Source: Methylonatrum kenyense (GTDB taxonomy: Bacteria > Pseudomonadota > Gammaproteobacteria > Nitrococcales > Aquisalimonadaceae). Taken from it: a stretch of DNA of 64,000 nt. The notes beneath the pieces are model-generated. The model made no database searches and was not told where the DNA came from. It worked only from the letters and a program-made list of their open reading frames with translations. The stretch lies in the NCBI RefSeq assembly GCF_023195885.1, contig NZ_JALPKO010000003.1, positions 248,001 to 312,000 of the forward strand, written 5' to 3'. Below are positions 44,351 through 62,780 of this stretch, in pieces; position 1 is the first letter of the stretch, and each line of letters opens with the position of its first letter. The translations under genes and the position numbers were made by a program.

Positions 44351-44364
44351 GCTGCCTGGCGCGG

Positions 44365-44436
44365 CCGGCCCGGTCGCTGCGGCTACCGAACCGGCACCGC
44401 GCCTTGCCAGGTGACAAAAACCGGTCTCGGGCGCAG
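44365..44436 (+). repeat. Decayed copy of the type-B end module
   Basis: This stretch matches 62683-62754 closely over its length (CCGGCCCGGTCGCT...GGGCGCAG, few differences) but lacks the terminal inverted repeat that follows in the intact element. It fills most of the gap between fur and recN. Confidence 0.75.
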
Positions 44437-56105: not shown

Positions 56106-56225
56106 TTATAAGGAAACGCTGACTTATTCCCGCGCCTGCGATCAAGACCGGTTTTGCTCATCTGGCAAGGCGCGGTGCCGGTTCCGTGGCTCCCCTGACC
56201 CAAGGCGACGTGCTTCTGCCCAGAG

Positions 56226-56267
56226 GCGTAGGGTGGGTCAAGCGAAGCGGACCCACGCGGTGTGATC
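56226..56267 (+). repeat. GTAGGGTG hairpin repeat, left copy
   Basis: GCGTAGGGTG then GGTCAAGCGAAGCGGACC then CACGCGGTGTGATC. Internal stem GTGGGTC/GACCCAC. It is paired with an inverted copy at 56382-56423. The GTAGGGTG...AAGCG repeat is widespread in bacterial intergenic regions. Confidence 0.7.
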
Positions 56268-56381
56268 GGGTAGGGGACACCAAAGATTTTCGCACAAGGA
56301 AGGTTCAGGACGAACCAGGGCGCGGTGAGTATTAGCGGTGGCGGTCGTGGTGAGCGAGAGCCCGTTGCCACGATCATGGCG

Positions 56382-56423
56382 GATCACACCGCGTGCATTC
56401 GCTGCGCTTAATACACCCTACGC
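56382..56423 (-). repeat. GTAGGGTG hairpin repeat, inverted right copy
   Basis: On the minus strand it reads GCGTAGGGTG, TATTAAGCGCAGCGAATG, CACGCGGTGTGATC. The stem is GTGTATT/AATGCAC. The outer 14-16 bases at each end are identical to the left copy while the stem bases differ in a compensating way. Confidence 0.7.
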
Positions 56424-56523
56424 GGCGTGTTCGGTGCGCCTTGCCTCGGAAAAAATGCGGACTCCAACGCAGGCGCGAGAATTAGTCAGTGTTTCCTGGC
56501 GCCGTATTCCAGGTTGTGGGCTT

Positions 56524-62353: not shown

Positions 62354-62440
62354 GACATCCTTTGCAACACGGGGAGGGGTTTCGTTGGGCCGGCAGTGGC
62401 CTTTCGCTGATAGGCTTGGCGCCGACACTCACAGCAACAT

Positions 62441-62780
62441 AAGGAAATACTGATTCATTCGCACGCCTGCGTTGGAGTCCGCAATTTCTCCGGGGCAAGG
62501 CGCGCTTAAGGAAACACTGATTTATTCGCACGCCTGCGTTGGCGTCCGCATTTTTCCGAGGCAAGGCGCGCTGCGCAGCGCCGCAGTCGTTCTGCGGTCA
62601 AGCAGCGCAACGCAGCAGTCGGGAAAAATGCGGCCCAACCCAAGGGGCCCGGCCGGTTTTGGCCCCTGGCGGCGTTGCGCCACCGGCCCGGTCGCTACCG
62701 CTACCGAACCGGCACCGCGCCTTGCCAGATGACCAAAACCGGTCTCGGGCGCAGACGCGGGAATGAATCAGTGTTTCCTT
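62441..62780. repeat. Composite inverted-repeat element, copy 2 (MITE-like)
   Basis: The ends AAGGAAATACTGATTCATTC (62441-62460) and GAATGAATCAGTGTTTCCTT (62761-62780) are inverted repeats at 19 of 20. The left side has two tandem type-A modules (start 62441 and 62508, period 67). The right side is a type-B module in reverse. A further inverted pair, CCGCATTTTTCC (62546-62557) with GGAAAAATGCGG (62622-62633), lies between. No open reading frame resembling a transposase is inside. Confidence 0.8.

Follow-up and report, generated by a model that had tools for sequence, protein, structure and literature searches.

A non-coding IS5-type MITE of Methylonatrum kenyense with a mirror-paired core cassette that recurs between different transposon ends in Proteobacteria

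Near the right edge of a 64,000-nt stretch of the Methylonatrum kenyense genome (contig NZ_JALPKO010000003.1, positions 248,001 to 312,000; here called the window), inverted repeats raise the question of where one mobile element begins and ends, what moves it and what it carries. A first-pass annotation had read positions 62441-62780 as a single MITE-like composite with 20-bp terminal inverted repeats. By computation, copies, target duplications, an empty site, an autonomous relative, twin cores, covariation and a diversity of ends were found. With a probability of about 80%, we read the locus as a MITE that is moved in trans by an IS5-group transposase, with landing on stop codons, and that carries a conserved mirror core cassette found with different ends across Proteobacteria.

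The extent of the element was settled by comparison with its relatives. The sequence AAGGAAATACTGATTCATTC (62441-62460) agrees with the reverse complement of 62761-62780 at 19 of 20 positions, as reported earlier; the inner pair, 62508-62527 with 62761-62780, likewise agrees at 19 of 20. Two tandem A modules are indeed present on the left (62440-62506 and 62507-62573), with 92% identity over 48 nt and 91% over the 23 nt next to these; on the right lies a B end in reverse. In the 30 full-length copies from the genome that were compared, the element is limited by a single A end and a single B end. A composite spanning 62440-62778 was rejected against these copies, and its left module was assigned to a truncated neighbour. 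The following features were mapped:

62510-62778, forward strand: complete MITE of 269 bp with the A end left and the B end right, matching 263-272-bp copies in its own and related genomes
62506-62509, no strand: left target copy, TTAA
62779-62782, no strand: right target copy, TTAC, with one mismatch to TTAA
62510-62527, forward strand: left 18-bp terminal inverted repeat, GGAAACACTGATTTATTC; the same ends bound an IS5-group insertion sequence in genomes G011 and G004
62761-62778, reverse strand: right 18-bp terminal inverted repeat, identical to the left one at 17 of 18 positions
62440-62506, forward strand: truncated A end of a second copy, abutting the 269-bp element, with 91-92% identity to 62507-62573 and missing together with the element at the sister site
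62538-62639, forward strand: left hairpin P2, from the fold of the window element and its conserved pairs
62647-62750, reverse strand: right hairpin P4, from the same fold and conserved pairs
62560-62616, forward strand: core 1, 57 nt, 86.1 bits with covariance model R1, a score given by construction because the window sequence belongs to the R1 alignment
62669-62726, reverse strand: core 2, inverted, 24.5 bits with model R1 (E 7e-4) and outside the building of that model

Being short (269 bp), non-coding and bounded by 18-bp terminal inverted repeats, the element is a MITE. It holds no open reading frame for a transposase, in line with the earlier description as non-autonomous. The genes on either side of it are divergently oriented, the distance to the downstream one being 15 nt (our own codon-based gene calls), and its end motif had no match in shuffled windows. 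The proposal of a MITE-like element with an A end and a B end was borne out by the copies, the target duplications, the empty site and a transposase-bearing relative; the tandem A modules as parts of one composite were not. A variable interior between the two ends, also proposed, holds for some copies but not for the standard copy, whose interior is a conserved twin-hairpin cassette and not arbitrary sequence.

Two other pieces of the window are related. A second A/B-ended element at 56110-56497 differs from 62510-62778 in its interior, where the palindromic arms GCGTAGGGTGGGTC and GGTGTGATC of another repeat flank a unique stretch; composites resembling it lie elsewhere in the same genome (G000:C23:172253-172627 and 227147-227503). 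At 44351-44436 there is a lone B-end fragment that lacks the end repeat and has 90% identity to 62669-62754.

At least 40 related copies were found in the 2.95-Mb genome at 82% identity or more, most at 88-96% (best 40 candidates scored), and the end motif gave 224 genome-wide matches, against none for the reversed pattern used as control. Rather than sharing end modules alone, which the first-pass annotation had named as a ground against a transposon, 88 full-length copies from five genomes kept the inverted spacing at 263-272 bp. Other genera of the family hold copies of equal length at about 69-74% identity. Nor did the element match a known RNA: at the gathering score, Rfam gave no family match at the window element or at ten related loci. 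The flanks, whose comparison had also been suggested, carry 4-bp duplications, with YTAR, the target of the IS5 group, in most of the 88 copies. Palindromic YTAR duplications alone could mimic longer inverted ends; the pairs CAAG..CAAG (L209, L219) and CCAG..CCAG (L019) have no palindromic symmetry and are therefore true direct duplications. In sister genome G002 the orthologous site lacks the whole insertion, and it can be aligned throughout with the window's flanks once these are joined. Another sister genome holds head-to-tail tandem copies with one target site common between them (G001:C127:93956-94503 and G001:C143:12246-12793). The window element had no match in plasmid records, and L351 none in phage and plasmid records; a Pseudomonas type of element matched Azotobacter, P. 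aeruginosa and Halomonas entries among these.

Within each copy, variation at one end goes with variation at the other: 105 changes are two-sided (100 of them complementary), against 91 one-sided ones. Mismatch between the ends of one copy was about half or less of the mismatch to the nearest relative, nearness being judged by the rest of the element. Several copies (L017, L028, L029, L164, L188 and others) carry the same rare variants at both ends, and these are not found in their nearest relatives by interior. End-to-end correction or selection for matched ends are possible reasons for the matched ends within copies.

A relative that has these ends and also a transposase, for which a search had been recommended, was present in two genomes. 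Between window-type ends flanked by YTAR, transposase P0001 (327 aa; DDE_Tnp_1 and DUF772; NCBIfam IS5 family, E 5e-102) is found in G011, a MAG of the Ectothiorhodospiraceae, and G004 holds this arrangement in four complete copies. Further beta- and gammaproteobacteria contain related insertion sequences that bear these ends. The window element resembles the IS5 group in its YTAR target, the motif stated for IS5 (PMC10359306), and in its GG-ended terminal inverted repeats; it differs in lacking a transposase and in having only the ends, not the subterminal sequence, in common with these insertion sequences, and it is therefore not a simple deletion product of them. Matches to PF01609 at L081, L083 and L084 were rejected as partners, as their ends do not match. 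Beside the autonomous element in G011 lies a 181-bp derivative (L082:891-1071) with TTAA flanks and one core-like hairpin.

A search of the window's own genome with DDE_Tnp_1 gave no hit in the 29-contig draft, where an intact insertion sequence could hide in a gap. The genome holds a transposase relic, a stop-containing fragment with 46 aligned residues at 53-54% identity, near a decayed end. This fragment (L314; G000:C24:201810-201950) was the sole trace of an IS5-group transposase found in the assembly. An IS5-group transposase would cut at the 18-bp ends and insert at a 4-bp YTAR site, duplicating the target; the MITE would be mobilised in trans, with the cassette carried along.

Insertion sites were compared with gene ends, using our own uncurated codon-usage gene calls for all stop-codon statistics. 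Of 23 YTAR-flanked ends on contig C23, 7 coincide exactly with the stop codon of a gene, compared with 6.9% of all YTAR sites (p 7e-4) and 10.9% of non-coding YTAR sites (p 0.009). Among loci mainly off C23, 15 of 66 ends do so (a few of these loci are on C23, and the two data sets partly overlap). Eight of 30 full-length copies lie at distance zero from a stop, four in each orientation, and orientation is neutral: genes point into the A end in 15 cases and into the B end in 16. The excess of copies on stop codons over chance arises because YTAR contains TAA or TAG. In such a landing, the duplicated target would keep the stop of the gene intact. A simple reason for the tolerance of a GC-rich genome towards so many copies would be that the target holds stop codons and that insertion there spares the gene.

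Solo 18-bp ends beside unique DNA were seen at about 20 places on G000:C23 (e.g. C23:64532-64549), several of them overlapping or touching stop codons; downstream of guaA, the end motif continues from the stop codon. A role of these solo ends as regulator sites beside stops was rejected after comparison with orthologous sites in relatives. Those sites lack the motif, and the solo ends are therefore read as decayed ends.

Whole elements aligned with MAFFT folded poorly under RNAalifold (-59), and the consensus sequence was therefore folded and pairs were counted instead. The consensus fold (-163 kcal/mol, z -11.8) consists of an outer stem P1 and the hairpins P2 and P4 with a short linker. Pairing was kept in 96% of cells over the 88 copies; in the G011 copies, which are about 73% identical, pairs are kept through two-sided changes at about a dozen positions. 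P2 holds a 57-nt core, and P4 the same core inverted.

The core was found far beyond the genus. Its model matched 46 of 274 genomes (39 of 222 genera) in the window's class and, in another class of the phylum, 23 genomes, with up to 56 matches per genome; named hosts include Pseudomonas profundi, Halopseudomonas pachastrellae and Herbaspirillum aquaticum. Detection of the second core, which is weak, succeeded in some elements, not in every one. Wherever two cores were detected in one element they were convergent (26 of 26), with a gap of 49-54 nt in 21, 68-69 nt in four and 101 nt in one. Thirteen cores of several genera, aligned without fitting to the model, paired in 93% of cells and had two-sided changes at 10 of 16 pairs, which none of 500 shuffles reached; this is covariation as in a structured RNA. 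In 94 cores aligned by fitting to the model, 15 of 16 pairs had two-sided changes. Letters in unpaired columns rank with the most conserved ones; they are CAAGG, ahead of the stem, as well as GCAG, CAA and AAC. No description of the core was found in the openly licensed PMC literature, searched by sequence letters and by topic, with ISfinder outside the search.

Most loci examined carry the cassette between inverted ends about 260-290 bp apart, and the end sequences around it include GGAARCRCTGATTTATTC, GGTCTGTTGCCGTTTC, AGTRCTCYTTCAAGG, AGTGTCCTGTCAC, TATTAACCCGGCAAC and AGAGCCTATTTCAGTAGG. An autonomous partner was established for one end type, that of the IS5 group. End type L070 resembles an IS630-family element of a Pandoraea plasmid at both ends, and the transposase of that element is DDE_3/IS630; the matching stretch is short (22 nt; E 0.9 when taken alone), and two transposase families are therefore supported, not proved. 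For ends of type AGTRCTCYTTCAAGGT, no 1-2 kb spacing that would mark an autonomous partner was present among the matches listed in four genomes. With the same cassette between different transposon ends across Proteobacteria, the cassette appears, as a lineage, to persist beyond any single transposase partner, and the lasting part of the element appears to be its folded middle rather than its ends. The end diversity would stem from end replacement rather than from very deep divergence of one end kind.

As to what the cassette does, conservation across hosts and end types, a wobble bias on the core's own strand and the mirror symmetry together suggest single-strand use of the core. Among non-Watson-Crick pairs on that strand, G.U outnumbers A.C by 94 to 4 in the fitted alignment (and by 31:0 and 15:0 when the stronger and the weaker core of each pair are counted apart), a ratio inflated because the model tolerates G.U; in the unfitted alignment, the two main stems have 18 G.U against at most 3 others. 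Each core may work as a single-stranded fold, most likely as RNA, and the mirror pair would supply one sense core in either landing orientation. Foremost, we infer that the core may be an orientation-independent RNA motif. The fuller account is offered tentatively, at somewhat less than even odds: a conserved, functional non-coding module of structured RNA (or ssDNA), distributed over the Proteobacteria as a mirror pair, would have repeatedly changed its ends (from IS5-type to IS630-type and others) and outlived its transposases, mirror pairing and stop-codon landing together placing one sense copy in the 3' region of a gene whichever way the element is oriented.

Structured DNA would account for part of the same evidence. 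The hairpins could form cruciforms or single strands in replication-coupled transposition, with a host or transposon protein binding the cores. Both strands of the element are palindromic (-163 and -180.5 kcal/mol), the stems outside the core have no strand preference within the genus, the ends of each copy co-vary, and DNA forms G.T wobble pairs too. IS5-group DDE transposases, however, act on double-stranded ends, and the cassette is kept across end types with different transposases; a DNA role is rather unlikely on this balance. It is likewise doubtful that this is an ordinary MITE with a palindromic filler, the core similarity reflecting horizontal spread of a functionless selfish element. 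High copy number and the many truncated and solo ends would fit such an element, and strong folds occur in other MITEs (PMC5896051, PMC2229807), but the conserved unpaired letters, the covarying stems and the core spacing fixed across classes exceed the needs of palindromy. That one MITE family diverged gradually at its ends alongside IS5-superfamily partners, as the many end types starting with GG or AG in CTAG or TTAG contexts would allow, is improbable, since one end type matches an IS630-family insertion sequence with a transposase of another Pfam family (DDE_3 versus DDE_Tnp_1) and ends such as TATTAACCCGGCAAC or ATACCAAGTCTCGATG are unlike all others.

Apart from these readings, the element was compared with known systems. 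MITEPsy1 of Pseudomonas syringae pv. phaseolicola (PMC3189936), a gene-free IS5-type MITE for which transposition was demonstrated, likewise has 18-nt inverted ends starting with GGAA, a 4-nt duplication (CTAG or YTAA) and an IS5-like partner, ISPsy2. It differs in its length of 100 nt, too short for a 270-bp twin-core interior, in its few copies and in its one end type, and the available part of its description holds no report of stop-codon landing or twin cores. QMITE1 of Coxiella burnetii is also a high-copy palindromic MITE (predicted fold -128 to -193 kcal/mol), with one locus expressed as RNA; unlike here, its authors found no orthologues in other genomes, and they reported an IHF site, whereas no exact IHF consensus was found in window-type elements (PMC5896051). 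CIR elements of Caulobacter and Brucella similarly have two long inverted-repeat arms with a linker and are conserved between genera, but they lack terminal inverted repeats, and the GANTC of their terminal loop is present in 3 of 94 cores here (PMC2229807). Correia/NEMIS, ERIC and RUP share high copy number, a MITE-like form and stable RNA folds, RNase III cleavage having been proposed for NEMIS RNA; they differ in being about 100-200 bp long with terminal TA, one end type each, restricted hosts and a single stem-loop (PMC2229807).

The MITE itself is of a known kind; what we rate as new is a superfamily of MITEs whose defining feature is the interior and not the ends. Bacterial MITEs are usually viewed as decayed copies of one insertion sequence, within one species or genus. 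With an interior conserved over two proteobacterial classes and different ends around it, a change of transposase partner by a MITE becomes testable, and the same contrast makes it testable whether a folded MITE interior has a function of its own.
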